Shown one piece after another: positions 42,756 through 63,175 of a DNA stretch of 64,000 nt. A model generated the notes under the pieces. It saw only the letters and a program-made list of their open reading frames with translations. It was not told the DNA's origin and did not search any database. The DNA lies in assembly GCF_900005615.1 (NCBI RefSeq), contig NZ_LN832559.1, positions 774,837-838,836 of the forward strand, written 5' to 3'. The position numbers and the translations under genes were made by a program. Position 1 is the stretch's first letter. Each line of letters starts with the position of its first letter. Origin of the DNA: Paracoccus aminovorans (GTDB lineage Bacteria; Pseudomonadota; Alphaproteobacteria; Rhodobacterales; Rhodobacteraceae).

Positions 42756-43661
42756 ATGAAGGAACAGGATATTGCGATCCTCGGCGTTTGCCGGTTCTCG
42801 ATGTTGGGGCGCGGCGACTGGAAGGCCTATCGGAACAAGACCGACGACCAGCTTGAGGCGATCTACGACGAAAAGGCGGCCGAACTTTTTGCGCCCGAGC
42901 GGATGCTGGCCCGGCTGGCCACCTTCGAGCATCTGACCCTGGCCTCGATGAAGGCGCAGAGCGACCCGAATTTCCGCTTCCTGGTCCTGTCCTCGGACCG
43001 CATGCCCGAAACCTATCGCGCCCGTCTGGAACGGATCTGCGAGGGGATGGCGCAGGTCGAGTTGCGCTTCGTCGCGCCGATGCATGTGTCCGAGGCGATC
43101 ACCCTGCTGGCGCCCGAGCTTGGCCTCGATTTGCCCGACACGGTGCAGTTCCGGCTGGACGACGACGATTGCGTGTCCAAGGATTTCATCCGCCGCCTGC
43201 GCCGCCATGCCGCCGGCCTGTGGCGCAACGCCCATTTCGCGGTCAGCTTCTCGTCGCTGTATTATTGCGTGACGGACGGGCCGACCGAGGGCATCTACAA
43301 CTGGTACAGCCCCTTCTTCAGCGCCGGCGCTGCGGTGCGGCACAGCACACGCACGGTATTCGATTATGGGCATTACAAGATTCCGCAACACCTGGTTTCG
43401 GTGACCGATCCGCATTTCCCCTGCATCGTCACCCATCGCGGCGACAACGACACGCCGCGGCACGAGGCGCAGACCCTGCGCAAGCGCGGCATGACCGTGG
43501 CGCTGCAAGAGGACGTGCAGCGGGCGTGGGCGCGGCATTTCAGCTATCTGGGTCCCGAGGGCCTGGCGCTGTCCACCTTTGCCAGATACCTCGGCGAAAA
43601 GGCCGGCCGTCCGCAATTCTTGGGCCTGGACGGCGAGGGCGAGGCCAAGGACGTGGCCTGA
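42756..43661 (+). CDS. Putative rhamnosyltransferase-like glycosyltransferase (copy A)
   Basis: This 301-residue protein matches the 'putative rhamnosyl transferase' family (PF11316 type): RFSMLGRGDW near the start, then LFAPERMLARLATFEHLTLASMKAQ and the nucleotide-sugar/metal motif RLDDDD (133-138). It is cytoplasmic and probably decorates a surface polysaccharide. The stop is only 12 bases from the stop of the convergent alpha/beta hydrolase. A clear paralogue with one nonsense codon lies at 62339-63175, again convergent with a relative of that hydrolase. The A/T-richer leader suggests acquisition. Confidence 0.82.
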   Translation: MKEQDIAILGVCRFSMLGRGDWKAYRNKTDDQLEAIYDEKAAELFAPERMLARLATFEHLTLASMKAQSDPNFRFLVLSSDRMPETYRARLERICEGMAQVELRFVAPMHVSEAITLLAPELGLDLPDTVQFRLDDDDCVSKDFIRRLRRHAAGLWRNAHFAVSFSSLYYCVTDGPTEGIYNWYSPFFSAGAAVRHSTRTVFDYGHYKIPQHLVSVTDPHFPCIVTHRGDNDTPRHEAQTLRKRGMTVALQEDVQRAWARHFSYLGPEGLALSTFARYLGEKAGRPQFLGLDGEGEAKDVA

Positions 43662-43673
43662 CCGCGCCCGCCC

Positions 43674-44588
43674 CTAGAACGGCAGCCCGGCCGCCGCCAG
43701 TTCGCGCTGCACGGCGGGCACCGGCGTCAGCGCCTTGTCGCCTGCGGCCTTGCTCTGGTCCAGCAGGCGGCGCAGGTCGTCGGTCCGCCGTTCGCCCAGC
43801 AGGGCGCTGACCAGCATGCTGAACGCCTGCTTGCTGGGCTTGATCGCCAGGCTGGCTTCCAGATGCCGGATCGCCAGACCGCGGTCGGTCCGCATCAGCT
43901 TGCGGGCGTTTTCCATATGCCAGACCGAATGCCGAGGGTCGGGATGCTGGAAGGGCACGATCTCGTCCCGCTCGATGATGCCCCGGATCAGCGGCTTGAG
44001 GCAGCGCATCTCGGCCAGGGTCAGCAGCACGGTATGGCCGGCGAAGGGAATGCGGACCAGCCGGACATCGGGATAGGCCGGCCGGACCATGCGATTGACC
44101 AGGAAATGGTCCTGCCGCCGCTCGGGGTCGAAAAGCACCACCGGGCTGCGGCTGGAACGGGGCGCCTGTGCCAGTTCCAGATGACGGATCTCCAGGTCGG
44201 CGTAGCGCCGGATTCTCAACGGTTTCCAGGCCGGCAGCATCGGCGCGGCGGCAAGGATGCGGGCATCGATCACGCCGCCGTAGTAAAGCGCGCAATAGCC
44301 GCCCAGGCTGGCGCCATAGGTGATCGCGTCGCGCCCCTGGATCACCGGCTGCACAGCGGCGCGGAAATCCTGCAGCGACAGCCCCTGGTATTGCGTGCCG
44401 TGCCGCTGCGCTACGAAGATGTTGTCCCAGCCGTTCTCGAGCGCGAAACTGCTGCCGAAGCCGACATCCGACAGGTCCGAGGGTTGGCCGCCGAAGCTGA
44501 CCACCACCCGCGCGGCGGGCGCGTTTCCGGCTTGCAGCAGGGTGATCCGATAGTCGGCATGATCGGCAAGAATATGCTTCCGTCCCAT
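43674..44588 (-). CDS. Alpha/beta-hydrolase-fold protein (copy A)
   Basis: This 304-residue protein has a nucleophile elbow YGASLGGY (Ser94), an acid candidate in VVLFDPERRQD (Asp154 or Asp160) and a histidine in PFAGHTVL (His185), the order of an alpha/beta-hydrolase triad. A helical tail of about 100 residues follows, with tetratricopeptide-like spacing (HLEASLAIKPSKQAFSMLVSALLG). It is probably an esterase or deacylase, with the substrate unknown. ATG 44588 follows GAGG. The frame continues open for 605 more codons upstream, but only as antisense of the tail-fibre gene. A truncated relative lies at 61815-62270. Confidence 0.72.
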   Translation of the reverse strand: MGRKHILADHADYRITLLQAGNAPAARVVVSFGGQPSDLSDVGFGSSFALENGWDNIFVAQRHGTQYQGLSLQDFRAAVQPVIQGRDAITYGASLGGYCALYYGGVIDARILAAAPMLPAWKPLRIRRYADLEIRHLELAQAPRSSRSPVVLFDPERRQDHFLVNRMVRPAYPDVRLVRIPFAGHTVLLTLAEMRCLKPLIRGIIERDEIVPFQHPDPRHSVWHMENARKLMRTDRGLAIRHLEASLAIKPSKQAFSMLVSALLGERRTDDLRRLLDQSKAAGDKALTPVPAVQRELAAAGLPF

Positions 44589-44780
44589 CGTCGGCCTCGC
44601 AAGTTGCACACGCAAAGGTTGTTTTCGACAAACTGGTTCAGCATTAAGTAAAATACAACTGAAAATTGCGGGGCCCTGGGTCCGCTTCCTTGCCGCCGGG
44701 GCGTTGCTTTTCCCGGGCCGGCAACGCGTCCGAAACGCCGGGATAATGGCGGCGCCTTTCGGAATGAGCAGAGGAACACC

Positions 44781-46277
44781 ATGCCGAACAAAGCCATTGT
44801 CAGGGGCGTCCTGATGGACGCCACCCTCGCCCCCATTTCCGAGGGCAAGATCGTCGCCACGCTGAGCGGCTCGGACGTGTTCGGCGGCACCCGGATCGTC
44901 ACCCAGCGCGTCGAGGCCACGACCAACGCGCGGGGCGAGTGGTCGCTGAACCTGATCGTGAACGCCGAGGGCGACACGGCAGGCACCAGTTGGACCATTG
45001 AGGGTTACAACCAATATGTCGCCAAGGTCTTCGAGGTGAAATCGCTGTTTCTGGCCTCGGCGCAGGACATCACCTTGGGCGACCTTGAACGCACCAGCGC
45101 CCAGAACCTGAAGGCCGCGAAAGAGGGCGGGCTGGCGCGGCTGATCGTGGCGCAGGATTTCAGCGGTTACGAGGCGCTGCCCTTTGGGCAGAAGCGCGAC
45201 AGCGACCTGGTGCTGGTCGATGCGCGCGACGCGCCGCTGGCGATCCACGCCGGGCTCAGCGGGGCGCTGTTCCGCGGCGTGCAACGGGTCTATCTGGGCG
45301 GGCGCGCGGTGCCGCTTCTGGATGCACGGGGGGCCACGCTGATCGCGGGGCAGGGCGCCGGCGTCGCCCCCACGGTGGCGCAGCAGCCGACGATCACGCC
45401 GGCCGGCGCCGGGCTGGGGGCGACGGTGGTGCTGAACCTCGGCGCGGCCACGGGCACGCCGGCGCCGGTGGCGGAATGGGACGTGACGCTGAACGGCGAT
45501 TCCCTGCGCGCCTCGGTCGACGGGCAGATGCGGCTGCAACTGGCGCGGGCGGGGGAATATGCGCTGGCGGTGCGCTGGGTGAACGAGGCCGGTGCGGTCC
45601 AGGCCACCACCGCCTCGCTGATCGTCGAGCCAGAGGCGCCGGTGGTGGTGGATATGACCCGGGCGGCGGGCTATTTCGACGCGAATTCGGCCGTTGCCGG
45701 CTCGGCCGCGGCGGTGACCGGTCTGGCCAATGCGGGCAATGGCGGCTGGGCGCTGGCGGCGACCGCATCGGGCGCGGCCATCGCCATGGGCGCCGAGGGC
45801 ATCGTCTTTGCCGACGGCCGCAGCCTGCAGGCGACGAACCTCAGCAATCCCAATGTGGACGGGGCCTTCATCGTGGTGCGGGCGGTGCTGGACGCCTATG
45901 GCTCGGGCGTGGCGCAGATCCTGGCGGCGAACCCTTCGGGCGGCACCATCGCGATCCAGAACAACAACGGCAGCCTGCAGGCGCGCTATCACGACGGATC
46001 GGCCCGCAGCATCGCCCTGGGCACCGTGACCTATGGTCAGGAATTCGTCGTCGGCATCGAGGTGAACAACGCGGCGGGCACCGTGCGCGCCTTTTCGCTG
46101 GCCGGCACGATGCTGTCGGAAACCCCGGCCGGCACGCCGGGCGTCAACTTCTCGCAGGTGCGCACCGGGCAATATGTTCGCGGCACGGTCAAGCAGATCG
46201 CGGTCTGCACCAAGCCGGTCGGCGGCAGTTTCGCGCTGCGGTTCGAGGATGTGATCGCGCATTTTCGGGGGGCGTAA
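44781..46277 (+). CDS. Phage tail-fibre-like / surface beta-structure protein
   Basis: This 498-residue protein has no signal peptide. The N-terminus (about 1-105) resembles tail-fibre entry domains: KAIVRGVLMDATLAPISEGK, then TTNARGEWSLNLIVN and DITLGDLERTSAQ. A short immunoglobulin-like repeat (about 200-290) and a lectin-like (LamG/concanavalin type) domain (about 295-498) follow. It may bind glycans on a cell surface. Only 26 bases separate its stop from the first ATG of the next ORF. A one-base slip on GGGGGG at 46267-46272 would join both into one protein of about 910 residues. The start follows GCAGAGGAACACC. Confidence 0.65.
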   Translation: MPNKAIVRGVLMDATLAPISEGKIVATLSGSDVFGGTRIVTQRVEATTNARGEWSLNLIVNAEGDTAGTSWTIEGYNQYVAKVFEVKSLFLASAQDITLGDLERTSAQNLKAAKEGGLARLIVAQDFSGYEALPFGQKRDSDLVLVDARDAPLAIHAGLSGALFRGVQRVYLGGRAVPLLDARGATLIAGQGAGVAPTVAQQPTITPAGAGLGATVVLNLGAATGTPAPVAEWDVTLNGDSLRASVDGQMRLQLARAGEYALAVRWVNEAGAVQATTASLIVEPEAPVVVDMTRAAGYFDANSAVAGSAAAVTGLANAGNGGWALAATASGAAIAMGAEGIVFADGRSLQATNLSNPNVDGAFIVVRAVLDAYGSGVAQILAANPSGGTIAIQNNNGSLQARYHDGSARSIALGTVTYGQEFVVGIEVNNAAGTVRAFSLAGTMLSETPAGTPGVNFSQVRTGQYVRGTVKQIAVCTKPVGGSFALRFEDVIAHFRGA

Positions 46278-46303
46278 CGGCGCCTGACAATACCGTCGAT
46301 CTG

Positions 46304-47533
46304 ATGATGTCCCGGGGCCAGTCCTTGGCACTGGGGGCGAATTTCGGCGCCGAGATCGCACCGGACGGCCGGCGCTGGCGCGATATTTTCGGCGGCGTGG
46401 CAAATCCCGGCGCGCTGATGCTGGCAGGGCTGCGGCGCGTGGACGGGGTCGCGGTGGCCAATGTCGCCAATCCGCTGCTGAACGGTTATGACACCGCGGT
46501 TCCGGCCACGGGTGCCGCGCCCATGGTGGTGCAGACTTCGATCCCCGAGGGCGCGGTTCTGGCCTGCGGCTTGCTGCGCGAAGGGCTGGCGCCGAACGGC
46601 ATCGCCTTCCAGTTCCACGATGCCGGCGGGCAATCGATCGAGAATCTGGACGGCGACGCCGCGACCGGCAGCGCCGGGCTGCTGACGCCCTGGCAGAACG
46701 CCGAATGGTGGCTGGCCGAGGCGGTGCGGGTCTTTGCCGCCGATGGCAAGCAGGTGCGGGTGCCGCGCCTGTTCCTGAACCAGGGCGAGGCCGATGTCTC
46801 GCGTCCGCGCGGCTGGTGGCTGGCGGCGGCGACCGAGGCTCTGGCCGGCTGGCGCGCGCAGATCGCGCGGCTGACCGGGCAGGCGGCGGCGCCGAAGCTG
46901 TTCCTGCACCAGACCGGCGGCTATATGCAGGGTGCCGCCAGCAATCTGCACGACTGCAAGCTGGACCAGCTGGACTTGGTGCGGGCGCAGGGCGGGGTGC
47001 TGATCGGGCCGCTTTATCCCTACAAGATCGACAACGGCGACGGGAAGGGCGTCCACAAGCTGTGGTCGGAATATGTCCGCGCCTATGAGGCCGGGATCTG
47101 GGCCGCTGCCGAGGACGCCGCCGGCCGGCCCTGGAGCCTGCTGCCCGGCCCTGCGACGCGCACGGGCGACCGGATCACCATCCCGATCTCGGTCCGGGGG
47201 GACGAGGCGCTGACGACCGTCGCCGGGGTCTATGCCGATTACGGCGGCGACCCGGCGCATCTGGGGCTGGAGGTCGCGGGCGGCGGCACGATCACGGCGG
47301 CCTCGGTGTCGGGCGGCGCCATCCTGCTGGACGTCTCGGGGCCGGTGACGGCGGTGCGCTATGCCATGCAGCGTGCGGCGACGGATTACCGGACGCTGAC
47401 CGATGCCTCGGGCTGTGGCTACGCTGCACATCGCGGGCTGATCCGCACCACGCTGACCCGCAGCGTCGCCTGGGGCGGCCGCGTCTTCACCATCGAGCGG
47501 TGGCTGCCCAGCTTCGAGCTGATCCTGGGCTAG
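46304..47533 (+). CDS. SGNH / sialate-O-acetylesterase-like protein, probably the C-terminal half of the preceding gene
   Basis: This 409-residue protein begins with SRGQSLALG, which looks like the GQS nucleophile block of sialate esterases (SGNH superfamily) and lies abnormally close to the N-terminus. A later LFLNQGEADVSRP gives the QGE block, and a final beta domain (about 275-409) follows. It would remove acetyl groups from sugars. No ribosome site precedes ATG 46304, and the frame is open back through the end of the tail-fibre-like gene. I therefore think it is normally made as a fusion, by -1 frameshifting or before a one-base deletion. A terminator follows. Confidence 0.65.
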   Translation: MMSRGQSLALGANFGAEIAPDGRRWRDIFGGVANPGALMLAGLRRVDGVAVANVANPLLNGYDTAVPATGAAPMVVQTSIPEGAVLACGLLREGLAPNGIAFQFHDAGGQSIENLDGDAATGSAGLLTPWQNAEWWLAEAVRVFAADGKQVRVPRLFLNQGEADVSRPRGWWLAAATEALAGWRAQIARLTGQAAAPKLFLHQTGGYMQGAASNLHDCKLDQLDLVRAQGGVLIGPLYPYKIDNGDGKGVHKLWSEYVRAYEAGIWAAAEDAAGRPWSLLPGPATRTGDRITIPISVRGDEALTTVAGVYADYGGDPAHLGLEVAGGGTITAASVSGGAILLDVSGPVTAVRYAMQRAATDYRTLTDASGCGYAAHRGLIRTTLTRSVAWGGRVFTIERWLPSFELILG

Positions 47534-47552
47534 GCGCGCGCCTAGGCTTGCC

Positions 47553-47581
47553 AAGGGCCGTCCTTCGGGGCGGCCCTTTTT
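47553..47581 (+). terminator. Terminator after the SGNH esterase gene
   Basis: The stem AAGGGCCG / CGGCCCTT with a 10-base loop ends in TTTTT. A perfect 16-bp palindrome CTAGGCGCGCGCCTAG (47530-47545) containing the stop codon precedes it. Confidence 0.85.
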
Positions 47582-47692
47582 CCATGCGCGGCGCAAGAAT
47601 CGCAACGAAATCGCCGCGCTGCGGCGTTTTCGGGTGGACATGGCGGCCGTGGTCGCAAAACTGCCCGGCAGGCGGATCAGCGGAGGCGAGCC

Positions 47693-49003
47693 ATGAACCT
47701 GACCATCGACGAAGCCCTGACCCAGGGCGGCGCCGGCCGTTTCCAGCGGCGGTTGCTGAGCATCTTCGGCCTGGTCTGGGCGGCGGATGCGATGCAGGTC
47801 ATCGCCATCGGCTTCACCGCCGCCTCGATCGCGGCCAGCTTCGGCCTGACCGTGCCGCAGGCGCTGCAGACGGGCACGCTGTTCTTCCTGGGCATGTTCG
47901 CCGGCGCGACGCTGTTCGGGCGCATCGCCGACCGGATCGGGCGGCGCAACGTGCTGTTGTTGACGGTGGGCTGCGACGCGGCTTTCGGCCTCGCCTCGGT
48001 CTTTGCCCCGGACATCTGGTCGCTGATGCTGCTGCGCTTCCTGACCGGCATGGCGGTGGGCGGCACGCTGCCGGTCGATTACGCGATGATGGCCGAGTTC
48101 CTGCCGCCCCGCAATCGCGGCCGCTGGCTGGTCTGGCTGGAGGGGTTCTGGGCCGTCGGCACCATCCTCATCGCCCTGACCGCCTGGGCCGCGCATCTGG
48201 CCGGCGCCGAGGAGCCCTGGCGCTGGATCTTCGCCGTCGCCGCGCTGCCGGCGCTGATCGGCATCTGGCTGCGGCTCTGGGTGCCGGAATCGCCGATGTA
48301 TCTGCTGCGCAAGGGCGACGAGGCCGGTGCGCGGGCGGTCGTCGACCGGGTGCTGACCGCGAACGGCGCCCGAGCGCTGGCCGGGCACATCCGCCTGACC
48401 GCGCCGCCCGCCCCCGCCCAGGCGCGGCTTTTCGGGCCCGAGCTGCGCAACAGCAGCCTGGGCATCTTTGCCGCCTGGTTCCTGGTTTCGCTGTCCTATT
48501 ACGGCGTCTTCGTCTGGCTGCCGGCGGAACTGGCCAAGGGCGGCTTCGGCTTCGTGCGCGGCTACGGCTTCCTGGTGCTGATGGCGCTGGCGCAGCTGCC
48601 CGGCTATGCCCTGGCCGCGCATGGCGTCGAAAGCTGGGGCCGAAAGCCGACGCTGCAGACCTTCCTGGTCCTCAGCGCCGCCGGCTGCTTCCTGTTCACC
48701 ATCGCTTCCAGTCCCTGGCTGGTCGCGGGGTCGCTGCTGGTGATGAGCTTCGCGTTGCTGGGCACCTGGGGCGCGCTCTATGCCTTTACGCCCGAGCTCT
48801 ACCCGACCGGGCTGCGCGGCACCGGCATGGGCACGGCCAGCGCGGTGGCGCGGGTGGGCGGTCTGCTGGCGCCCTCGGCGCTTGGCTATGTGGTGGCGCG
48901 CGGCCTGGGCACCGCCATCGGCGTCTTCGCGGCGCTTCTGCTGCTGGCGGCGCTCTGCACGCTCTTCATCCGGGCCGAGACGCGCAACCAGCCCATCGGC
49001 TGA
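47693..49003 (+). CDS. MFS transporter (SV2/sugar-aromatic acid type)
   Basis: This 436-residue inner-membrane protein has 12 predicted helices. The MFS loop motif between helices 2 and 3 is GRIADRIGRRNVLL. Helix 4-5 shows RFLTGMAVGGTLPVDYAMMAEFLPPRNRGR, typical of the sugar/aromatic-acid and synaptic-vesicle-like branch. The substrate cannot be assigned. GGAGGCGAGCC precedes the ATG. It is transcribed alone between a terminator and a 240-base gap. Confidence 0.88.
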   Translation: MNLTIDEALTQGGAGRFQRRLLSIFGLVWAADAMQVIAIGFTAASIAASFGLTVPQALQTGTLFFLGMFAGATLFGRIADRIGRRNVLLLTVGCDAAFGLASVFAPDIWSLMLLRFLTGMAVGGTLPVDYAMMAEFLPPRNRGRWLVWLEGFWAVGTILIALTAWAAHLAGAEEPWRWIFAVAALPALIGIWLRLWVPESPMYLLRKGDEAGARAVVDRVLTANGARALAGHIRLTAPPAPAQARLFGPELRNSSLGIFAAWFLVSLSYYGVFVWLPAELAKGGFGFVRGYGFLVLMALAQLPGYALAAHGVESWGRKPTLQTFLVLSAAGCFLFTIASSPWLVAGSLLVMSFALLGTWGALYAFTPELYPTGLRGTGMGTASAVARVGGLLAPSALGYVVARGLGTAIGVFAALLLLAALCTLFIRAETRNQPIG

Positions 49004-49247
49004 ACCGACGCGGCCGGGGGCGTGATTCGGTTGCGCCTTGGAAATCCACGATTATTCTTGCCGACGGTCGGGGTGATTCGCTTTGTGGTTGCAGAGCGGG
49101 GCTCTCAACCGCCGGGAGGCGCTGCTATATTTGTCCAATTTGTATGAAAATCTGGTCAACCCGCGGATTCCGGTGCAATTTCCGAAAACGGCCGGCGATG
49201 GCGCCGGCGCCTTACTTCATCGCATTTTCCGAACGAGGGACCACCAC

Positions 49248-49856
49248 ATGCTGAAACCCGCCCTTCTGGCCATTGGCCTGACCCTGGGGCTTGCCGGCTG
49301 CGCCAGCTCGACCTGGGAAACCGCCTATGATCAGCTCGACACCGCGCAGACCGCGCACTGGCGCGTCGCCTCGGTCGAGGTCGCGGCGCCCGAGACCCTG
49401 ACCACCAGCGAAGAAAACAGCTATACCCCCGATTTCGACATCGTCTGGCATGGCGAGCCGGCCGGCGATCGCCGCGCCCAGGCCGCCGCCATCGTCAAGG
49501 AAGGGATCGAGAAGGGGGCCGCCGGCCTGCATGGCAAGACCCGCGTGCGCATCGTCGCCACGCTGGGCCAGTTCCATGCCATCACGCCGGTGGTGCGCGA
49601 GAAACTGCAGAATTCGGGCGTGCATAACATCCAGTACAGCGTGCAGGTCTTCGACGCCCGCAGCGGCGCGGCGCTGACCGAGCCGCAGACCATCAAGGCC
49701 GAATTCCCCGCCTTGGTCGGCCGCGCCGGGGACGAAGCCGACGCCAAGGGCCTGACGCAGCGCGTGCAGATCGTGAACCAGATCGCGGCAGTCACGCAGA
49801 ACTGGCTGGGCCGGGGAGCGGACCCGCGCGGCACCTTCCAGCGTCGCGGGCGCTGA
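49248..49856 (+). CDS. Lipoprotein of unknown function
   Basis: This 202-residue lipoprotein has the signal MLKPALLAIGLTLGLAGC with lipobox LAGC (Cys18) and mature sequence starting ASSTWETAYDQL. The mature domain contains GKTRVRIVATLGQFHAITPVVREKL and IQYSVQVFDARSGAALTEPQ, a pattern I have seen only in uncharacterised Rhodobacterales lipoproteins. It is probably anchored in the outer membrane because Ala follows the Cys. ATG 49248 follows CGAGGGA. A strong terminator lies 26 bases after the stop. Confidence 0.8.
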   Translation: MLKPALLAIGLTLGLAGCASSTWETAYDQLDTAQTAHWRVASVEVAAPETLTTSEENSYTPDFDIVWHGEPAGDRRAQAAAIVKEGIEKGAAGLHGKTRVRIVATLGQFHAITPVVREKLQNSGVHNIQYSVQVFDARSGAALTEPQTIKAEFPALVGRAGDEADAKGLTQRVQIVNQIAAVTQNWLGRGADPRGTFQRRGR

Positions 49857-49882
49857 ACTTCAGGAAAATAGTGGGAATGGCG

Positions 49883-49909
49883 AGGCCGGCTCTTGCGAGC
49901 CGGCCTTTT
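49883..49909 (+). terminator. Terminator after the lipoprotein gene
   Basis: A 10-bp perfect stem AGGCCGGCTC / GAGCCGGCCT with a TTGC loop is followed by TTTTC. The zapE start lies only 18 bases beyond it. Confidence 0.9.
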
Positions 49910-49927
49910 CTTTGGCAGGGGGCAAAG

Positions 49928-51175: not shown

Positions 51176-51233
51176 AGCTGCCGCACGCGAAGGCACGGTC
51201 GCAGAGCATTGGGAAAACGGTGAAAATGCGCCG

Positions 51234-52502: not shown

Positions 52503-52512
52503 GGTCGGGGAC

Positions 52513-54963: not shown

Positions 54964-54973
54964 GGAGAGCCCG

Positions 54974-55297: not shown

Positions 55298-55432
55298 GCA
55301 CAACCTTGCCGTGATTCGGCCGCGCCCGGCCTTGCCCCCGCCGGCGCCGGGCCCTATCCAAGGCGCGCCGTCCGCTTCGCCGGGGCGGCGCGGAAACCGA
55401 CCTCGCAGCGATCAGGGACAGGGCAGAACGGC

Positions 55433-56218
55433 ATGGCAATGCGGCCTCGCAAGTGGATCGAACGCAAAACCCGCGAACGGGCCCTGCGCCACTGGGCGGA
55501 CCTGGCCGAAACCGCCGAGGCGCTGGGTCCCGGCCGGCTGCGCAGCCTGCGCGACGAGGCGCTGGGCCTGCGCGCCAGCCTCGACCGCTTCCTGATCCGC
55601 GCCGACCGCCGCGCCGTGCGCTCGCGCGCTGCGCTGGACGCGCTGCATCTGCCCGGCGGCACCGACTGGCGCTGGCGGCCGGGTTTCATGGCCGCGCAGA
55701 TCTCGCCCCGCGGCGTGGCGGGGCCCGAGCCGGGCGGCACGCTGGGCGACGGCGCCGCGATCTGGCACGATTGCCCCGAGCGGGCGCTGATCCTGGAACA
55801 GGTCGCCAATCTGGGCGCCACCGACCTGTCGCCCTTCGGCATCCGGCTGGAGGTCTTCGGCTTTTCCGGCAGCTTCCTGTCGCTGTCCATCGACCTGCCG
55901 ACCAGCGCCCTGCAGGGGCTGACGCGCAGCCACGTCCTGCGGCTGGAAACCGGCATCCTGGCCGAGCGGGCGCTGAACGTCTATGCCCGGCTCAACATCG
56001 GCCACGGCCCCAATATCGAAGAGATGACCCTGCAGCTGCACCGGTTCGAGCCCGGCCAGCCCGTCCAGCAGGTGACCGAGTTCGACCTGGCCTATACCCA
56101 GATGAACGAGAAGCGGCTGGAAAAGATCTGGCTGGACCTGATCTTCGAATCGCCGCGGATGAATGCGGTCGAGATCCGCGACCTGTTCTTCTCGCGCCAC
56201 CTGCGGGCCGAACTCTGA
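55433..56218 (+). CDS. Conserved Rhodobacterales protein of unknown function
   Basis: This 261-residue protein has no signal or membrane segment and begins with a basic helix (MAMRPRKWIERKTRERALRH, in part). A globular domain follows with FSGSFLSLSIDLPTSALQGLTRSHVLRLE and LNIGHGPNIEEMTLQLHR, ending in a helix RLEKIWLDLIFESPRMNAVEIRDLFFSRH. The middle looks like a beta-sandwich carrying alternating hydrophobics. I recognise it only as an uncharacterised family of this order. It is followed after 14 bases by a second unknown gene, so the two may act together. Confidence 0.8.
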   Translation: MAMRPRKWIERKTRERALRHWADLAETAEALGPGRLRSLRDEALGLRASLDRFLIRADRRAVRSRAALDALHLPGGTDWRWRPGFMAAQISPRGVAGPEPGGTLGDGAAIWHDCPERALILEQVANLGATDLSPFGIRLEVFGFSGSFLSLSIDLPTSALQGLTRSHVLRLETGILAERALNVYARLNIGHGPNIEEMTLQLHRFEPGQPVQQVTEFDLAYTQMNEKRLEKIWLDLIFESPRMNAVEIRDLFFSRHLRAEL

Positions 56219-56232
56219 AGCGAGGAAGCGAG

Positions 56233-56619
56233 ATGAGCGAATTCGAATCCCTGGGCCTGAAAAGCGGAATCTGGCAGGGCATCCTGCGGCGCGAGACGCC
56301 CCCGGGCCGGCTGCTGCTGGTGCATATGGGCAGCCCCGTCGCCGAGGCCCTGGCCACCGCCGAGCCCGAGGGCGGCTGGCGCGTCGCCGCCGCCATCCCG
56401 CCCGAGCTTCTGTCGGACGGGGTGCAGAGCTTCCTGCTGGTCGAGGACCGGGGCGCCGCGGCCGAGCCTCTGCAGGCCGGCGCCCATTCCCTGGGCAGCC
56501 TGACGCTGATCGCTGGCGCGCTGCTGGACGACGACCTGCTGGCCGAGATGACGCTGATGCGGGCCGAGCTGGAATTGCTGAAAAAGGAACTGCGCCGCCT
56601 GGCTGCCGCGATCGGCTGA
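56233..56619 (+). CDS. Small protein of unknown function with C-terminal coiled coil
   Basis: This 128-residue acidic protein starts SEFESLGLKSGIWQGILRR. It has a beta-rich middle (RLLLVHMGSPVAEAL and GWRVAAAIPPELLSDGVQSFLLVED) and a leucine-rich terminal helix LLAEMTLMRAELELLKKELRRLAAAIG that should form a coiled coil. The 14-base spacing from the preceding unknown gene and the ribosome site GAGGAAGCGAG support an operon. No family name is known to me. Confidence 0.8.
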   Translation: MSEFESLGLKSGIWQGILRRETPPGRLLLVHMGSPVAEALATAEPEGGWRVAAAIPPELLSDGVQSFLLVEDRGAAAEPLQAGAHSLGSLTLIAGALLDDDLLAEMTLMRAELELLKKELRRLAAAIG

Positions 56620-56623
56620 GGCC

Positions 56624-57346
56624 TTAGTCGTCGCGGGTCCAGTAGCCGTAACCCTCCAGTTCGGCAAAGCCCAAGCGGTCGTAAAGCGCGCGCGCGCCGG
56701 TATTCGCCCGGGTGACCGCCAGCGCCAGCCGGGTCGCCCCCTGCTCCTGCCCCCATTGCGCCGCCCGGCGCAGCAGCCAGCCCGCCACGCCCAGCCGGCG
56801 CAGCGCCGGCACCACCTCGATGGCGTGGATCATGGCGACCGGCCCGTCCACCGCCACGAAGGCGGCCCCGGCGGCGCGGTCCTGCACCCGGCCCAGCAGC
56901 GCGGTCTTGGGCTGGCGCACCCGCGCCATCGCCGCCTGCCGGCCGGGGCTGACATTGCCCGCCGCCCAGATCTCGCGCTGGACCGCCAGCGGCGACCAGA
57001 TGTCGAACGTGCTCAGTCGCGGCAGCGGCTCGGCCGCCAGCGCGGCGCAATCGGCGGCCATGACCACGGTCGGGCGGTCGTGCCGGAAGCCGCGCGCCGC
57101 CAGCGCCTCCTGCAGCGCCGCATCGGTTTCGGCCACGCGGAACATCGCCGGCTCGTTCCAGCGGCGCTGGATCTCGGCAACCTCGGCGATGGCATCCGCG
57201 TCCCAGCCCGGCGCCACGGCCCGGGCCGAGCTGACCCGGCTGCCGCCCCCGGCGCCGCGGCCGACGCGGAACCCGCCCACACCGGCATAATCGGCCGCGG
57301 GCCAGGTGCTCTCGAAGGCGCGGGCGATTTCGGTATCGGCGATCAT
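56624..57346 (-). CDS. GNAT-family N-acetyltransferase
   Basis: This 240-residue protein has a GNAT domain in its C-terminal half. The acetyl-CoA loop is VVPALRRLGVAGWLLRRAAQWG (about residues 178-199), and the final motif ALAVTRANTGARALYDRLGFAELEGYGYW is typical. The N-terminal half carries a degenerate second GNAT-like fold. The substrate is unknown. Its ATG overlaps the stop of the CinA-like gene by 4 bases, so they form a two-gene operon. Confidence 0.87.
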   Translation of the reverse strand: MIADTEIARAFESTWPAADYAGVGGFRVGRGAGGGSRVSSARAVAPGWDADAIAEVAEIQRRWNEPAMFRVAETDAALQEALAARGFRHDRPTVVMAADCAALAAEPLPRLSTFDIWSPLAVQREIWAAGNVSPGRQAAMARVRQPKTALLGRVQDRAAGAAFVAVDGPVAMIHAIEVVPALRRLGVAGWLLRRAAQWGQEQGATRLALAVTRANTGARALYDRLGFAELEGYGYWTRDD

Positions 57347-58083
57347 AGGGCCAGCCTTTCGCGCAGCAGGGTCATGGCATCGGCGACGCGCCGGGCGTCG
57401 AGGCCGCGGATCACCAGGCTGGTGCCGTAGCGCTGGCCGCGTTGGAACGGATAGGACCCCAGCGACAGGTCGGGGAAGGCGTCGGCCACCGCCCGCAGCT
57501 CGTCCGCCACATCGGATTCCGGGCGCAGCACCTCCAGCGCCTCGCTGACCGAGGGACGGCCGGTCGGCAGCTTGTCCACGATGGCCTCGACCATGGCCCG
57601 GAACACCTCGGGCACGCCGGCCATGACATGGGTGTTGCCGATGCGAAAGCCGGGCGCGGCGGAATGGGCGTTGGGGATCAGTGCCGCGCCCAGCGGGATG
57701 CGGGCCATGCGCAGCCGGTTGCCGGTGACCTCGACCCCGCGCGCCTCCCAGCGCTCGACCATGACGCGGCGGGCCTCCTCGTTGATCTCGATGCCGACGC
57801 CAAAGGCATCCGCCACCGCGTCGGCGGTGATGTCGTCATGCGTCGGGCCGATGCCGCCACTGGTGAAGAGCATGTCCCAGGCCCCGCCCAACGCCTTGTC
57901 CAGCGCCCGGATCGAGGCCACGATCTGGTCGTGGTCGTCGCCGACGATGCGCACCTCGCGCAGGTCGACGCCGATGCTGTTCAGCACCTGCGACAGGTAA
58001 TGGGCGTTGCCCTCGCGCGTGCGGCCGGACAGGATCTCGTCCCCGATGACCAGGATGGCGGCGGTGGGATTGTCGGATTGCAT
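57343..58083 (-). CDS. Molybdopterin-binding / CinA-N-terminal-like protein
   Basis: This 246-residue protein consists of a MoaB/Mog fold: ILVIGDEILSGRTREGNAHYLSQ at the start and FTSGGIGPTHDDITADAVADAFG in the middle, both diagnostic of the CinA N-terminal (COG1058) domain. The C-terminal deamidase domain of full CinA is absent. Related short proteins are nucleotide or ADP-ribose pyrophosphatases. Start ATG 58083 has AGGA. It is divergent from map with 108 bases between. Confidence 0.87.
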   Translation of the reverse strand: MQSDNPTAAILVIGDEILSGRTREGNAHYLSQVLNSIGVDLREVRIVGDDHDQIVASIRALDKALGGAWDMLFTSGGIGPTHDDITADAVADAFGVGIEINEEARRVMVERWEARGVEVTGNRLRMARIPLGAALIPNAHSAAPGFRIGNTHVMAGVPEVFRAMVEAIVDKLPTGRPSVSEALEVLRPESDVADELRAVADAFPDLSLGSYPFQRGQRYGTSLVIRGLDARRVADAMTLLRERLAL

Positions 58084-58191
58084 CTCGCGTTCCTCGCGTT
58101 TCGGCTGTCGGGAAATGTATAGGTCCGCGCACGGGGCTGGAACAAGTGGCGCCTTGGGACTATCTGTGGGGCAGCACAGGACGAGGACGCC

Positions 58192-58995
58192 ATGAACGAC
58201 GCACGCCAGACCCGCGAGGGGATCCGCATCCACGACCAGCAGGATTTCGCCGGCATGCATGCGGCGGGCCGGATCGCGGCGCAGATCCTGGACGAGGTCG
58301 GCCCGCTGGTCCAGCCCGGCACCACCACCGCCGCGCTGGACGACTTCATCCGCAACCGCGTGACCGAGCTCGGCACGGTCAGCGCCACCATCGGCTATCG
58401 CGGCTACCAGCACGCCAGCTGCATCAGCGTGAACCACGTCGTCTGCCACGGCATCCCCGGCGACAAGATCCTGGCCGATGGCGACATCCTGAACATCGAC
58501 GTGACGGTGATCCTGGACGGCTGGTACGGCGACAGCTCGCGCATGTATGTCGCGGGCAAGCCCAGCGTGAAGGCCAAGCGCCTGATCCAGGTCACCCATG
58601 ACAGCCTGATGAAGGGCATCGAGGCCGTCCGCCCCGGCGCCACTTTCGGCGACATCGGCTGGGCGATCCAGTCCTATGTCGAATCGAACCGCATGTCGGT
58701 GGTGCGCGACTTCTGCGGCCACGGCCTGGGCCGCACCTTCCACGCGCCGCCGAACGTGCTGCACTTCGGCCGCCCCGGCAAGGGCCCGGTGCTGGAAGAG
58801 GGCATGTTCTTCACCATCGAGCCCATGGTGAACCTGGGCCGCCCCGAGACCAAGATCCTGGCCGACGACTGGACCGCGGTCACCCGCGACAAGTTGCTCT
58901 CGGCCCAGTTCGAGCATTCGATCGGCGTCACCGCCAGCGGGGCCGAGATCTTTACCCTGTCCCCGGCCAACCTGTTCTTCCCCGGCTTCGACTGA
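58192..58995 (+). CDS. map: Methionine aminopeptidase, type I
   Basis: This 267-residue metalloprotease removes the initiator methionine from nascent proteins. The dinuclear metal site is formed by residues in LNIDVTVILDGWYGD, GHGLGRTFH, TIEPMV and QFEHSIGVT, all conserved. The family-wide YRGYQHASCISVNHVVCHGIP is present. The ribosome site is GGACGAGGACGCC. It is monocistronic, with the palindromic repeat element just after the stop. Confidence 0.96.
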   Translation: MNDARQTREGIRIHDQQDFAGMHAAGRIAAQILDEVGPLVQPGTTTAALDDFIRNRVTELGTVSATIGYRGYQHASCISVNHVVCHGIPGDKILADGDILNIDVTVILDGWYGDSSRMYVAGKPSVKAKRLIQVTHDSLMKGIEAVRPGATFGDIGWAIQSYVESNRMSVVRDFCGHGLGRTFHAPPNVLHFGRPGKGPVLEEGMFFTIEPMVNLGRPETKILADDWTAVTRDKLLSAQFEHSIGVTASGAEIFTLSPANLFFPGFD

Positions 58996-59021
58996 GACGA
59001 GGCGGGCCGGTGCGGCCTTGG

Positions 59022-59096
59022 CTTCTTTGCTCCTCAAATACCCCATACGGCAGTGCAACCGTCGCTGTTGCATGGGGTATTTGCGGAGCGCAGAAG
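59022..59096. repeat. Dispersed palindromic element, inverted pair (copy 3)
   Basis: Two 25-base arms (59022-59046 and 59072-59096) are inverted copies with 22 of 25 matches. Each reads ATGGGGTATTTG, then GGAGC, then AGAAG. The shared core GGGGTATTT...AAGAAG ties it to the elements near 14.4 and 51.1 kb. It lies between convergent map and the LacI-type regulator and could end both transcripts. Confidence 0.75.
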
Positions 59097-59177
59097 CATA
59101 TTGCGTGGGTGCCCAGGCCTGCGCCCGTTTTCGCCCTCTTTCAGCTATCCCGGCAACGCGGCGCGCGGGTAGCAGCC

Positions 59178-60197
59178 TCAACGCTTGCGGATGGTCTCGC
59201 CGGGCATGATCGTCGGCGCCAGCGCGATGACGCCGCTTTCGGGCCTCGGCTCCTTGCCGGCGACGATGCGGGCGGCGCGTCGGCCGATGTCGATGCGCCG
59301 TGCATCGGTGGTGGTCAGCCGCATCGGCAGCCCGTCCAGCAATTCGACGCCGTTGAACCCGGCCAGGCCCAGCTTGCCGGGAATGTCATAGCCCTTCTCG
59401 AGGCACCACAGGAGGCCGCCGGCGCCGATCATGTCGTTGGAGAAATACAGGAAATCCAGACCCGGTTCGCGCGTCAGGATGCGCTCGGTCAACTCGCGGC
59501 CCTTATGCAGGGACGAGCCGCCCTGATAGTATTCCCGGGCCGCCAGTTGCACCCCTTCCTGGGCGAGCCGTTCCTCGAAGCCGGCCAGGCGTTTGCGGGC
59601 ACGATGGTCCTCGGGCATATGCGTGCCGATGAAGCCGATGCGGCGATAGCCTGCCGCCAGGATTTCCCCGGCCATCTCGGCCCCCGCCCGGCGCTGCGAT
59701 ATTCCGACTGCCGTATCGATGGGTTCGCCGTCCACGTCCATGATCTCGACCACCGGCAGTCCGGCATTGTCCAGCATGGCCCGCGCGGCCCGGCTGTGCT
59801 CGAGCCCGGCCAGGATCACGCCCGAAGGCCGCCAGCTCAGCATGTCGTAAAGCACGGAATCCTCGCGCGAGGGGCTGTAGTTGGTCACCCCCACGACCGG
59901 CTGCAGGCCGGTGTCGTCGAGTTCGGCCGAGATGCCGCCCAAAACGTCGGGAAACACCATGTTCGAGAGTGAGGGGATGACCACGGCGACCAGATTGACG
60001 CGCTGGCTGGCCAGGCCGCCGGCGATCTTGTTGGGAACGTAACCGAGGGTGCGGGCGGCGGTCAGCACCTTCTCGCGCGTGGCGGCCGAGACGTCGCCGC
60101 GATTGCGCAGCACGCGGCTGACCGTCATTTCCGAAACGCCCGAGGCTTCGGACACGTCGCGCAGGGTCAGGGGACGGCGGGGTCGCTTCGTATTCAT
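59178..60197 (-). CDS. LacI-family transcriptional regulator, GntR (gluconate) type
   Basis: This 339-residue repressor has an N-terminal helix-turn-helix (TLRDVSEASGVSEMTVSRVLRN, about 10-31) and the hinge helix NKIAGGLASQRVNLV. A periplasmic-binding-type effector domain follows. The protein resembles the gluconate repressors (GntR/IdnR branch) of the family ('MVFPDVLGGISAEL', 'FLYFSNDMIGAGGLLWCLEKG'). The effector is probably a sugar acid, but no target operon is in the window. A GntR-like operator half-site pair lies 22 bases upstream of the start, suggesting autorepression. Confidence 0.88.
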   Translation of the reverse strand: MNTKRPRRPLTLRDVSEASGVSEMTVSRVLRNRGDVSAATREKVLTAARTLGYVPNKIAGGLASQRVNLVAVVIPSLSNMVFPDVLGGISAELDDTGLQPVVGVTNYSPSREDSVLYDMLSWRPSGVILAGLEHSRAARAMLDNAGLPVVEIMDVDGEPIDTAVGISQRRAGAEMAGEILAAGYRRIGFIGTHMPEDHRARKRLAGFEERLAQEGVQLAAREYYQGGSSLHKGRELTERILTREPGLDFLYFSNDMIGAGGLLWCLEKGYDIPGKLGLAGFNGVELLDGLPMRLTTTDARRIDIGRRAARIVAGKEPRPESGVIALAPTIMPGETIRKR

Positions 60198-60218
60198 GGC
60201 AATTACCGGAACGCAATC

Positions 60219-60234
60219 ATGTTACCGTTATCGT
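60219..60234. promoter_or_regulatory. Candidate operator of the LacI/GntR-type regulator
   Basis: ATGTTACCGTTATCGT is close to the known GntR consensus ATGTTA-N4-TAACAT. The left half-site is perfect and the right half matches at four of six positions. It lies just upstream of the regulator gene, where binding would block its promoter. This is inference from consensus only. Confidence 0.45.
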
Positions 60235-60292
60235 GTCCGGAGGGCGACGGCAACCTTGCCATTTCCGTGATCTGCGGGCAAAAGAACCCGGC

Positions 60293-60369
60293 GGCCCCGT
60301 GGCTCAACTGGATAGAGCAGCCCCCTCCTAAGGGGCAGGTTGCAGGTTCAAGTCCTGCCGGGGTCACCA
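60293..60369 (+). tRNA. tRNA-Arg (anticodon CCT)
   Basis: A complete cloverleaf is present: acceptor GGCCCCG/CGGGGTC, D-stem GCTC/GAGC, anticodon stem GCCCC/GGGGC with loop CTCCTAA (anticodon CCT, reads AGG), T-arm GCAGG-TTCAAGT-CCTGC and encoded CCA. An integrase remnant begins 24 bases further on and reads toward it, which makes the tRNA 3' end the likely attachment site. Confidence 0.97.
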
Positions 60370-60393
60370 TCCCATGAAAATAGTGTTGTATAA

Positions 60394-60700
60394 TCAGGCA
60401 TTAGCGCCTCGGTTTCCATTCTGGGTCTTGCTGGTTTCCAATTTCTGTTCCTGATCCGTGCTGGACAGGATGCGCTTGCGGTCTGCCGCTTTGCTGTATC
60501 GCTGGACCTCGGACAGGCTCTCATGGCCGGTCCAAGCGGCGATCTGGTGCGCTGTTGCGCCCGCTTCGGCCAGCGCCATGGCGCGGGACTTCCTCAGCCC
60601 GTGAGCGGACTTTCCGGCGATGCCAGCGGCCACCGCTGCCTCGGCGAACCAACTGCTGAACGCCTTTTCCGAGCGCGGCTTGCCGTGCGTCGTGACCACC
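60394..60700 (-). pseudogene. Tyrosine integrase, C-terminal fragment
   Basis: On the minus strand about 100 codons match the catalytic end of phage tyrosine recombinases: HGKPRSEKAFSSWFAEAA, then AHGLRKSRAMALAEAG (H-x-L-R), WTGHESLSEVQRY (G-H and the catalytic Tyr) and a short tail. The N-terminal two-thirds are missing. Upstream of about 60700 the sequence switches to an unrelated phage gene on the opposite strand. Its end faces tRNA-Arg, as for an integrase beside its attachment site. Confidence 0.8.
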
Positions 60701-60916
60701 CGCGGCATCAAGGTCGTGACCGAGGATGGGCGCGAAAGCGAGCTGGTGCAGACGGGCGGCGATCTATACGATGAAATTCCGCTCTGGACCGGCATGGATG
60801 AGCTGACTGTCCCTGCGCAGTGGAACCGTGACGGCACCGTGACGCTGAGGCAGGATTACCCGCTGCCTATGACGGTCCTCGGTATCGCCATCGGCATCAG
60901 TATCGGGCGGAATTGA
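60701..60916 (+). pseudogene. Phage structural gene, C-terminal fragment
   Basis: About 70 codons are open on the plus strand (RGIKVVTEDGRESELV..., ending ...LGIAIGISIGRN). The first part of the apparent ORF (60620-60700) is only antisense of the integrase, so this is a C-terminal remnant. I cannot name the family. Its stop overlaps the ATG of the Gp13-like gene (TGATG), the tight packing expected in a phage morphogenesis operon. Confidence 0.6.
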
Positions 60917-61380
60917 TGCGGGTCACGGTCGGTCCCGTCACGCCGGAAGTTGTCACCGAACTGTTGCCGCGCCTGCGGCCTGTGGATCGGTTGGAGCTGG
61001 ATTGCATGGCTATGGGCGAGACCGAGGCCGATCTGCGGTCCATGGTTTCCCGCGCGCGGCGCTGCCGGGCGGCATACATCGACGGCGAGCTGGTCTGTAT
61101 CTTCGGGGTGAGCGCGTCCACGATGCTTGCCGATGTCGGATGCCCCTGGGCGCTGATGACGCGGGCGGTGGATCGGCGCGAGTTCCGGCGCGAGTTCATC
61201 GCCGATTCCCGCGTCGGGCTGGAGTGGCTGGGGCAGGATTTCCGGCGGCTGTGGAACCTTGTGGCGGAGGAAAACGCCGTCGCGATTCGCTGGCTGCGCT
61301 GGCTCGGGTTCCGCTTCGACGGGCGCGCCGTGGATCTGCGGGGACATCGGTTCCTGCACTTTGACAAGGAGATTGCCTGA
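60916..61380 (+). CDS. Phage Gp13-like protein (DUF2833, internal virion protein family)
   Basis: This 154-residue protein carries the acetyltransferase-like pattern of the phage Gp13/DUF2833 family: AAYIDGELVCIFGVSA, GCPWALMT, then LWNLVAEENAVAIRWLRWLGFRF and a final LRGHRFLHF. In T7-like phages the homologue is an assembly protein for the internal core. It appears full length and undamaged amid broken neighbours. Its start overlaps the preceding fragment's stop by one base. Confidence 0.75.
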   Translation: MRVTVGPVTPEVVTELLPRLRPVDRLELDCMAMGETEADLRSMVSRARRCRAAYIDGELVCIFGVSASTMLADVGCPWALMTRAVDRREFRREFIADSRVGLEWLGQDFRRLWNLVAEENAVAIRWLRWLGFRFDGRAVDLRGHRFLHFDKEIA

Positions 61381-61382
61381 GG

Positions 61383-61547
61383 TCAGGCAAAGTTGAGCCG
61401 AGCAAAGTCACCATAATAGCGCCGCGCAGCAATGTCGCGGGCCTTTGCGGCCTCGATTTCATCGGAAAAACTCCCGATGGAGATGGCCTTTCCGCCGACA
61501 CGAACCTGAGCGCGCCACTTTCCGAGTCTCTCTTGCCAAACCGTCAC
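61383..61547 (-). pseudogene. AP2-domain fragment (from a phage-type HNH endonuclease)
   Basis: Fifty-four codons on the minus strand read RLGKWRAQVRVGGKAISIG, then FSDEIEAAKARDIAARRYYGDFARLNF. This is the AP2/ERF fold as found at the C-terminus of phage HNH homing endonucleases. A TAG lies just before it in frame, and no HNH part is present. The first possible start is a GTG at 61547. It abuts the tail-tube fragment at a CTAG (61551-61554) that is a stop on both strands. Confidence 0.7.
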
Positions 61548-61554
61548 CGCCTAG

Positions 61555-61824
61555 ACCCAGATCTACGGCATCGAGGAACTGAATACCCCCGAGCGGACGC
61601 CCGATGATATCGACGTGACACACATGCAGTCGCCGGGGCGAAACCGCGAGACGATTCCGGGCCTGATGTCGGCTGCGGATTGGTCGCAGGATCTGCAATA
61701 CTGGCTGACGCACGCATCGCAGGTGATGCTGGACGATCTGGCGACCCTGACCGAGATCGGTGAGAAGGAAGACGTGCTGGTCGAGTTCAATGTCGGCGGC
61801 CTTCGGCGCACCCCGCAAGTCTAG
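61555..61824 (+). pseudogene. Phage tail-tube-like protein, internal fragment
   Basis: Open plus-strand codons read IYGIEELNTPERTPDDIDVTHMQSPGRNRETIPGLMSAADWS and so on (in segments), the 'vTHm.SPgr..e.ipGl.da...' pattern of lambda-like tail-tube proteins. The N-terminus is missing. After VEFNVGG (about 61800) the frame leaves phage-like sequence and runs to a stop at 61824, because the DNA there now belongs to the hydrolase fragment in another frame. Confidence 0.65.
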
Positions 61825-62270
61825 GTGGATATGCGGCTCTTTACTTCGGGAGCGCCATCGGATCGCAGATCGTTGCGGCAAGCCCAAGACTCAGTAACCA
61901 TCCGATTTTGAGAGGGCATTTTGGAAAAACTGTTTCCCTAAGAGAGGATGGCCGACCGCGAGAATTCTCCCATGACGAACGTCTTACCTGCATCGATCCG
62001 TCAATTATTCCGTCCATAATATACGATCCGTTGATTATTCAGGATTCTCGCTTTCTGTTTCAATACGCCGGACCTTGCTACAAGAAATTGGCATTGTCCG
62101 CCCTTCCAGGGGCAGGGCATACTGTTCTTGAAACGATGCGACAGGCGGGCGTTCTATCTTTGGTTATGCCCCGTATGGTGACCGGGGCTATGCCGCGCAT
62201 AAAGCCGTGGATTTATAAAAGGGTGTTGGATCATATTTCTTCAAACATCGCTGAGGCACGAGTCGGTTAG
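61815..62270 (+). pseudogene. Alpha/beta-hydrolase, truncated second copy (copy B)
   Basis: Reading plus strand from 61815 gives ASLGGYAALYFGSAIGSQIVAASP, later YDPLIIQDSRFLFQYAG and PGAGHTVLETM. These line up with residues 93-190 of the intact hydrolase at 43674-44588 (ASLGGYCALYYGGVIDARILAAAP, FDPERRQDHFLV, PFAGHTVLLTL). The first 92 residues are missing, replaced by the phage tail fragment, so it cannot make an intact enzyme. It ends 68 bases from the end of a convergent glycosyltransferase, the same arrangement as copy A. Confidence 0.75.
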
Positions 62271-62338
62271 CGTTCTGCGGCATGGCACGCACTGGATCGT
62301 GAGATTCTCGTCACATCTCGCGCGGCTGTTTACTGAGC

Positions 62339-63175
62339 CTACGCCGCGGGTAGCCCAGCGATTTCCCGGGATTTGTCCGTCAAGAAGGGAAAGTGGGCCG
62401 CGCACGATGTTGCAATGGTGGCATCATCCATTTTTTTCATGCCTTGCCGGCGTATCCTTTGGGCATCAAATAGGGTGTCATTCAACCCGCCATTATGTGT
62501 AACCATCGCCATTCCGCCGGGGATAATGATGCTGGTAAAACGCCGCGCCAGAGCGAAATGACCAAAAGCAAATATGCTGTGTCGCGGATGCCAGAGCGAG
62601 ACCCCGACGCCCAAGAAAGGTGCGCTCCAACTATATATCCCCGAATGTGGTCCACCTTTGGCGCAGAACATCACGTTGCGGAAACTGACCGAAAACGGAA
62701 AACTTCCTGGGATTAATCGATCGACTGTAGAGCGCATCTTGCGGATGAAATCGACGGTAAGAGCGTCATCATCGTCCAGTCGGAACTGCAATACGTCCTT
62801 ATATTGCAGACCGATCTGATCGAACATCTCGATTTACGCTTTTCCAACATTGATGAGTGGAAAAAACCGGAGAACCACTTGCGGGACTTCATCACATATT
62901 TTTTGAAGCCTGGCCTTATACTCTTCCGGAATCAGTTCCGACGCGGCGACGAGAAAGATGAAATTCTGATCGGTCTGTGCCTTGAGGGACGGGAGGGTGA
63001 TGTGTTCAAAAGTTGCCAGTCGGCGCTCCATTCGGTCGGGGGCAAACAGCTTGGCGGCCTGCTCGTTTGCGATGCGCCCCACCTCGTCGTCGGGTTTCCC
63101 GCGATAGGGTCGCCAGTCGCCACGGCCCAGCAAAGAAAAACGACAAATGCCTACAACCTGCATGATGAACTCCAT
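62339..63175 (-). pseudogene. Rhamnosyltransferase-like glycosyltransferase with one in-frame stop (copy B)
   Basis: The minus strand is open in one frame from ATG 63175 to the stop at 62339 except for a single TAA at 62834-62836. Both halves align along their full length with the intact paralogue at 42756-43661 (CRFSLLGRGDW, LFAPDRMERRLATFEHITLPSLKAQ, RLDDDD), and the stop falls at the residue matching Ile115 of copy A, just ahead of the DDDD motif. No frameshift is needed. It could be a recent nonsense mutation, a base-calling error or a rare readthrough case. G+C is lower than in copy A. Confidence 0.8.

Follow-up and report, generated by a model that had tools for sequence, protein, structure and literature searches.

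The subject of this report is a convergent gene pair for a glycosyltransferase (GT) and an alpha/beta hydrolase, together with the orphan, phage-like fibre module that adjoins it, in a 64-kb stretch (the window) on a 3.1-Mb contig of a 4.04-Mb Paracoccus genome. The nearest described relatives of the GT are the putative rhamnosyltransferases of family PF11316, on which no paper stood among those listed by our literature search. The top VIA structural matches of the hydrolase are the meningococcal capsule O-acetyltransferase (6yuo) and the Gap123 complex (6oyc), the latter of which we take to be Asp2-like. The fibre module invites comparison with podovirus tail fibres (phrog_4201; prophage vB_PamP_PD2, hereafter PD2) and with the head spikes of RcGTA, the gene transfer agent (GTA) of R. 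capsulatus. According to the published accounts (PMC10218006, PMC7296036), these spikes are likewise orphan receptor-binding proteins beside surface-glycan genes, the head-spike genes adjoining capsule genes (PMC10218006). Literature searches returned no title on either the GT/hydrolase pair or the fibre module, which is not proof of absence.

We lean towards reading the intact pair (copy A) as two accessory genes of the chromosome that serve to decorate a cell-surface glycan. This view is carried by the anatomy and intactness of the two genes, the purifying selection on them, the synteny of the locus, its place outside the prophage and a recurrent association of GTs with hydrolases that includes gene fusions. 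Under this model, the cytoplasmic PF11316 GT would attach a sugar to a surface glycan, the presumed substrate, and the alpha/beta-hydrolase-fold enzyme would esterify that glycan (which we judge more likely) or strip it of an ester group; the decorated product would leave via the ordinary lipopolysaccharide (LPS), capsule or exopolysaccharide route, and the cellular effect may be an altered phage or particle receptor. The pair would have been assembled from two mostly separate families at a tRNA-Thr locus also used by phages; it is common to this species and Paracoccus aminovorans and adjoins a probably older orphan module of fibre and SGNH esterase.

An intact pair after tRNA-Thr

A first-pass annotation, made from the letters of the window, had described two convergent GT/hydrolase pairs (copies A and B), each near a tRNA gene, the first intact and the second consisting of a truncated hydrolase and a GT with a single stop. 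Searches for tRNAs, Pfam families and sequence similarity confirmed this anatomy, as well as the collinear homology of the A and B proteins. The features of copy A are:

42288-42363, + strand: tRNA-Thr (CGT), from the tRNA search; in P. aminovorans, the 3' 21 bp of this tRNA serve prophage PD2 as attachment core
42756-43661, + strand: GT A, intact PF11316 putative rhamnosyltransferase (Pfam E 3.3e-68)
43674-44588, - strand: hydrolase A, with alpha/beta-hydrolase fold and triad and a C-terminal TPR-like helical part

GT A belongs to PF11316 over its full length (230.1 bits against a curated cut-off of 23; model positions 2-233 of 235), including the acidic run DDDD at residue 135. The Pfam match of hydrolase A falls under the curated cut-off (Abhydrolase_6, E 0.0012); the fold and the retained triad Ser94-Asp154-His185 place the protein in the alpha/beta-hydrolase superfamily, and it contains no hydrophobic signal-like stretch. 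The Ser-Asp-His triad and the position beside a GT are shared with the glycan O-acetyltransferases 6yuo and 6oyc; however, hydrolase A is only 13-15 % identical to these proteins, its Z scores for them are tied with those for esterases, and its TPR-like part is additional.

The two genes are 12 bp apart and, with dN/dS values (YN00) of 0.22 for GT A, against P. aminovorans, and 0.29 for hydrolase A, are under purifying selection. The closest named record, P. aminovorans HPD-2, has a collinear locus (L070) from the GT through ZapE, at 77-90 % protein identity. GC content is 0.684 in the window, 0.64-0.67 in copy A and 0.53-0.54 in copy B. The gene maps come from a simple purpose-written gene finder that may miss atypical genes. 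On these maps, the surroundings of copy A look by eye like housekeeping genes (eight of the neighbours were also included in the PHROG neighbour scan), and no phage genes other than the two fibre/esterase genes were noticed near it by eye. The earlier statement that phage-type genes lie beside both copies thus holds for the debris around copy B, but at copy A only for those two genes. A PADLOC run on seven proteins gave just one marginal match, of the hydrolase to AbiEi (E 0.0032), which we take as chance.

A decayed pair after tRNA-Arg

The features of copy B are:

60293-60369, + strand: tRNA-Arg (CCT), from the tRNA search
60394-60837, - strand: C-terminal piece of a phage integrase (PF00589, E 9.6e-11)
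60913-61380, + strand: T7 gp13-like internal virion protein, prophage debris (phrog_308, E 3.7e-31)
61785-62270, + strand: hydrolase B, 5'-truncated remnant found by similarity; the open frame runs from 61764
62339-63169, - strand: GT B, PF11316 pseudogene found by Pfam, one in-frame TAA, GC 0.53

From 61785, hydrolase B corresponds to hydrolase A residues 83-198, at 36 % (E 3.6e-10; profile E 3.6e-25), having lost its first 80-90 or so residues and kept the motifs ASLGGY and AGHTVL. GT B consists of two PF11316 pieces, 62834-63169 (E 1e-30) and 62339-62827 (E 8.7e-18), split by the single TAA. The two genes are convergent, 68 bp apart, with some 2 kb between GT B and its tRNA. We read copy B as a pair of separate origin that has since died, within prophage debris at tRNA-Arg.

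Two further features were seen beside copy B. One is a BrnT/BrnA-like pair at 63362-63863 of the window, named by eye, PADLOC being the only family search applied to it; the other (L052 3468-4427) is 83 % identical to the chitinase/endolysin gene of PD2.

Association of the two families

Among 125 Paracoccus genomes, the GT occurs in 72 (E <= 1e-25), at 102 places by summation, and the hydrolase profile matches 69 (E <= 1e-3), with strong matches (E <= 1e-50) at 21 places in 18 genomes. In the present genome, single-sequence searches found six members of the GT family and two of the hydrolase family. A hydrolase relative lies within 3 kb at seven of the 102 GT places (copies A and B, G070, G116, G139, G066 and G081), compared to 0.24 expected under uniform placement (p 7.5e-9; p 5.5e-6 if taken as five independent events), an excess that is overstated because the null ignores the clustering of accessory genes at tRNA hotspots. 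These counts were read from hit tables by eye, with hydrolase thresholds of E 1e-3 within the genus and E 1e-10 across the order; at E <= 1e-10 the genus count drops from 7 to 4. The two GT pieces of G081 were counted once, and G005, with its genes about 4.5 kb apart, was left out.

In addition to these neighbours, two proteins combine a PF11316 GT with a following alpha/beta-hydrolase domain (L156 3856-5631 and L206 4844-6541). These fusions, of 591 aa in G066 and 565 aa in G146, show the hydrolase part at E 7e-8 and 3e-7 in searches of a small local set, and Pfam detects the GT part alone. The G066 fusion is among the seven places counted above; the G146 fusion and the neighbouring genes of G104 come from a separate locus comparison and are not. 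Together, these observations give moderate support to a functional link between GT and hydrolase. At another locus (L219 3252-5390), a hydrolase-like gene and a GT gene stand directly downstream of lpxA/lpxI/lpxB-like genes (named by eye), a gene order hinting at a connection to lipid A or LPS.

The fusions and the neighbour excess, even if the latter is inflated, bear most directly on the alternative that both kinds of accessory gene simply gather at tRNA hotspots and that their proximity is functionally meaningless. The hotspots themselves, which the first-pass annotation had anticipated, are real: 12 of the 71 distinct GTs, a set without GT B, lie <=500 bp from a tRNA (for example L064, L065, L213-L216, L219 and L221), which amounts to about seven independent sites. 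By our own estimate, which assumes about 55 tRNAs per genome, 1-2 % would presumably be expected by chance. The majority of both families is solitary, and hydrolase B is no nearer to hydrolase A than to many other hydrolases, in agreement with coincidence. With the two fusion proteins on the other side, we regard this explanation as unlikely, though it is the alternative to which we give the most credence.

Several results weigh against a glycan-decorating pair. No such hydrolase lies within 3 kb at 95 of the 102 GT places, and none of the 25 GT places outside the genus, in a draw of 292 genomes from the same order, has a hydrolase neighbour; rarity of adjacency is what the first-pass annotation had named as evidence against its own proposal, and the two families are indeed rarely adjacent. 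The GT adjoins only 2 of the 21 strong hydrolase places, both of which represent one syntenic locus, and weak relatives supply the remaining associations. The Foldseek top 50 for hydrolase A shows peptidases and esterases and includes neither acetyltransferase, and acetyltransferases and esterases cannot be told apart by their fold scores. The YN00 estimate of dN/dS failed for five of nine pairs. Finally, no LPS or capsule cluster was noticed around copy A on inspection of the gene map by eye.

Prophage PD2 and the mobility of the pair

In P. aminovorans, the same tRNA-Thr is occupied by a prophage with an SU10-type portal and capsid and with a 21-bp core repeated at both ends. The limits that we found agree with the published limits of vB_PamP_PD2 (101,365-144,113 of NZ_KQ955208; PMC6536676), a known prophage of 42.7 kb. 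The GT starts about 180 bp past the distal core (attachment core C1:144114-144134; GT match from C1:144314), so that the locus of copy A in P. aminovorans lies outside the attachment sites between which a prophage moron would be sought.

The first-pass annotation had proposed a phage- or island-borne module, and we weighed the corresponding explanation, that of a moron unit whose two genes travel together and bring about lysogenic conversion. Both pairs do stand at tRNA genes, phage insertion at tRNA-Thr is known from P. aminovorans, and copy B lies within prophage debris. Pattern scans of IMG/VR yielded one viral contig in which the pair is terminal (in L074, core at 7801 and GT at 8001); evidently, this call covers the same prophage and runs past its end. 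However, a search of 50,697 phage records gave nothing for the GT at E 1e-3; for the hydrolase, two records gave matches of 24 % and no others did. Repeats of the last 14-18 tRNA bases were found neither downstream of tRNA-Thr, within the window, nor downstream of tRNA-Arg, in the window and the next ~18 kb, where the attachment ends of copy B were sought.

The locus comparisons also bear on whether the pair travels as a unit. In a tree built with FastTree from 71 locus GTs (GT A among them) plus A and B, GT A groups with those of P. aminovorans and G116 (support 0.98), whereas GT B falls in another clade, as the sister of a solitary GT at C1:1796763 of the same genome (0.97), with the GTs of G098, G005, G145 and G146 nearby (0.79 and 0.96). 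In G145 and G146, that GT lies 33 bp from the same tRNA-Arg, and no phage gene was noticed between them. GT A itself adjoins a tRNA; its relatives at 55-73 % identity in five mapped congeners (G003, G011, G021, G035 and G034) stand between ettA-like and prpE-like genes (named by eye), with no hydrolase of the hydrolase A family at these loci. The G116 orthologue of GT A (80 %) is paired with a different hydrolase (28 %) in a co-directional arrangement. In that genome, a 3-kb stretch between tRNA-Thr and the GT (L151 9131-12044) contains no called genes and no matches to the compared sets.

Because the GT clades are discordant, the GT adjoins only the two strong hydrolase places noted above, and G116 has another hydrolase, a travelling unit is not supported: the two genes do not share a common history and neighbourhood across genomes. 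Accordingly, of the earlier suggestion that the pair moves and works as a unit, we retain the functional link and give up the mobility. The pair is unlikely to be a unit of phage cargo, and the phage- or island-borne explanation as a whole appears improbable to us. In four genomes (G117, G097, G103 and G143), the fibre gene follows tRNA-Thr with neither GT nor hydrolase between, a natural pair-less state; therefore, the interval behind tRNA-Thr is a hotspot for insertions.

The orphan fibre module

The tail-fibre-like and SGNH-esterase-like genes reported after copy A in the first-pass annotation are present as described. The features are:

44703-44747, + strand: promoter-like element GTTGC-N13-GCAAC-N16-GATAAT, 78 bp ahead of the fibre start codon
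44781-46277, + strand: orphan fibre TF1, with a conserved N-terminal domain of ~147 residues, followed by beta domains and, at the C-terminus, a lectin-type fold (LamG/ConA-like)
46304-47533, + strand: SGNH/SASA-like esterase-type fibre protein (phrog_4201), 33 % identical to a fibre gene of prophage PD2

The AlphaFold2 model of TF1 has a pLDDT of 85 and a pTM of 0.49, with lectin-fold matches at residues 285-498. The SGNH-like gene belongs to phrog_4201 (E 1.8e-12; in the translated stretch, residues 114-380 match profile positions 378-644 of 676). Its probable start is the ATG at 46304; the frame used as query, 46277-47533, opens with ACG, which is not a start codon. We take the motifs GQS ... 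QGEAD ... GVH in its product to be SGNH/SASA-like. Neither the fibre nor the esterase protein has a signal-like hydrophobic stretch. Matches to TF1 occur in 34 of the 125 Paracoccus genomes and matches to the SGNH-like gene in 20. Unlike podovirus fibre genes, the SGNH-like gene is an orphan, in whose surroundings no genes for phage morphogenesis were noticed.

A PHROG scan of 105 selected genes around 12 fibre loci (148 listed for 11) matched 48 families at E <= 1e-10; of these, none of the 25 listed near fibre loci is named head, tail, portal or terminase. In G123, a prophage seems to adjoin the fibre module. A viral-contig scan for TF1 matched four stretches, none of them a relative, and a PHROGs scan of 16 N-terminal domains gave chance-level matches alone (best E 0.017). 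We considered whether the N-terminal domain is a prophage adaptor, given a weak collinear match to a 144-aa protein ahead of the G123 prophage fibre (hhalign E 0.0066, probability 5.7 %; no match to the PD2 protein), and do not rely on it. For the SGNH family, Pfam gave no sensible match with 12 members, and nine PDB profile matches, headed by ubiquitin repeats (4.5 bits per repeat, one aligned), were all judged to be artefacts.

The strictly spaced promoter element precedes 25 of the 27 N-domain genes examined across the genus. The present genome has two sites, 44703-44747 of the window and L168 8399, both ahead of fibre/adaptor genes, and no further ones at <=2 mismatches. In G117, 910 bp are identical at two distant loci (5491-6400 of the reverse complement of L153 and L175 7524-8433); this segment, comprising the tail of a regulator, the promoter and the N-domain, would have moved from a bare-adaptor locus into the fibre locus. 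To judge by this identity, the fibre promoter and N-terminus of G117 were replaced by a copy from the distant bare-adaptor locus. In three other genomes (L181/L194, L182/L196 and L197/L195), the corresponding segments are 94.5-99.3 % identical. From the pair-less loci, we infer that the fibre at tRNA-Thr, and the orphan module that it forms with the SGNH-like gene, is older than the pair.

Our comparison with RcGTA is based on PMC7296036, PMC10218006, PMC13420450 and PMC6363796. Relative to the head spikes as described there, the fibre shows no sequence similarity that we found, base and fibre are fused, and the neighbours are not a capsule cluster. Head-spike identity found no support in sequence: a PDB sequence-profile search with the N-domain, which bears on homology to the base protein Rcc01079, gave one irrelevant match (E 0.61). 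Co-regulation of the fibre with a GTA likewise found no support. Across seven stretches, of which four are GTA-type clusters of this genome and three come from the PD2 region, the sole match to the element at <4 mismatches precedes the L150 fibre gene, with none in the GTA-type clusters, although the activator site of this genus may differ. This genome has four GTA-type megatron (PF13547) genes (G000 C1:98944, 145228, 265911 and 1027891); by eye, one cluster looks like a GTA and the others perhaps like prophages.

These comparisons bear on a further alternative, in which the four genes of 42756-47533 form one set, a released or particle-borne lectin/esterase with enzymes that shape the receptor or protect the producer, in the manner of the RcGTA spike. 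The resemblance of both proteins to phage fibre proteins, their lack of a signal-like stretch, the R. capsulatus gene order and the presence of megatron genes speak for such a set. Yet neither the N-domain profile against PDB sequences nor the promoter element in the stretches scanned ties the fibre to a GTA or prophage, and four genomes carry the fibre at the same tRNA-Thr without the pair; we consider this explanation highly improbable, the least likely of those weighed here.

Discussion

Copy A, then, is best read as a chromosomal accessory pair acting on a surface glycan, and the earlier suggestion of surface-polysaccharide modification is retained in this conditional form. The fibre module is the more novel part of the locus. 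A speculative extension, to which we attach a low probability, is that Paracoccus has domesticated a phage-free fibre cassette, with an adaptor of ~150 residues under a private promoter, interchangeable lectin fibres and an SGNH esterase. In such a cassette, the adaptor domain would either stand by itself or have lectin fibres and the esterase fused to it or following it, and it would be homogenised within each genome as bare-adaptor genes near glmS-like genes overwrite the fibre promoter and N-terminus; the cassette would provide receptor-binding fibres for GTA or prophage particles encoded elsewhere in the genome, with the neighbouring pair tuning the receptor of the producer.

The pair would represent one more means of varying bacterial surface sugars, and the GT-hydrolase fusions point to joint action of the two enzymes. 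The wider point concerns the fibre genes, which are orphan, selected and phage-like, with a dedicated promoter and clear traces of gene conversion, and are unlinked to phage at most of the examined sites. Should GTA or phage particles receive these fibres in trans, the host would control both the choice of fibre and the modification of the receptor from one locus.

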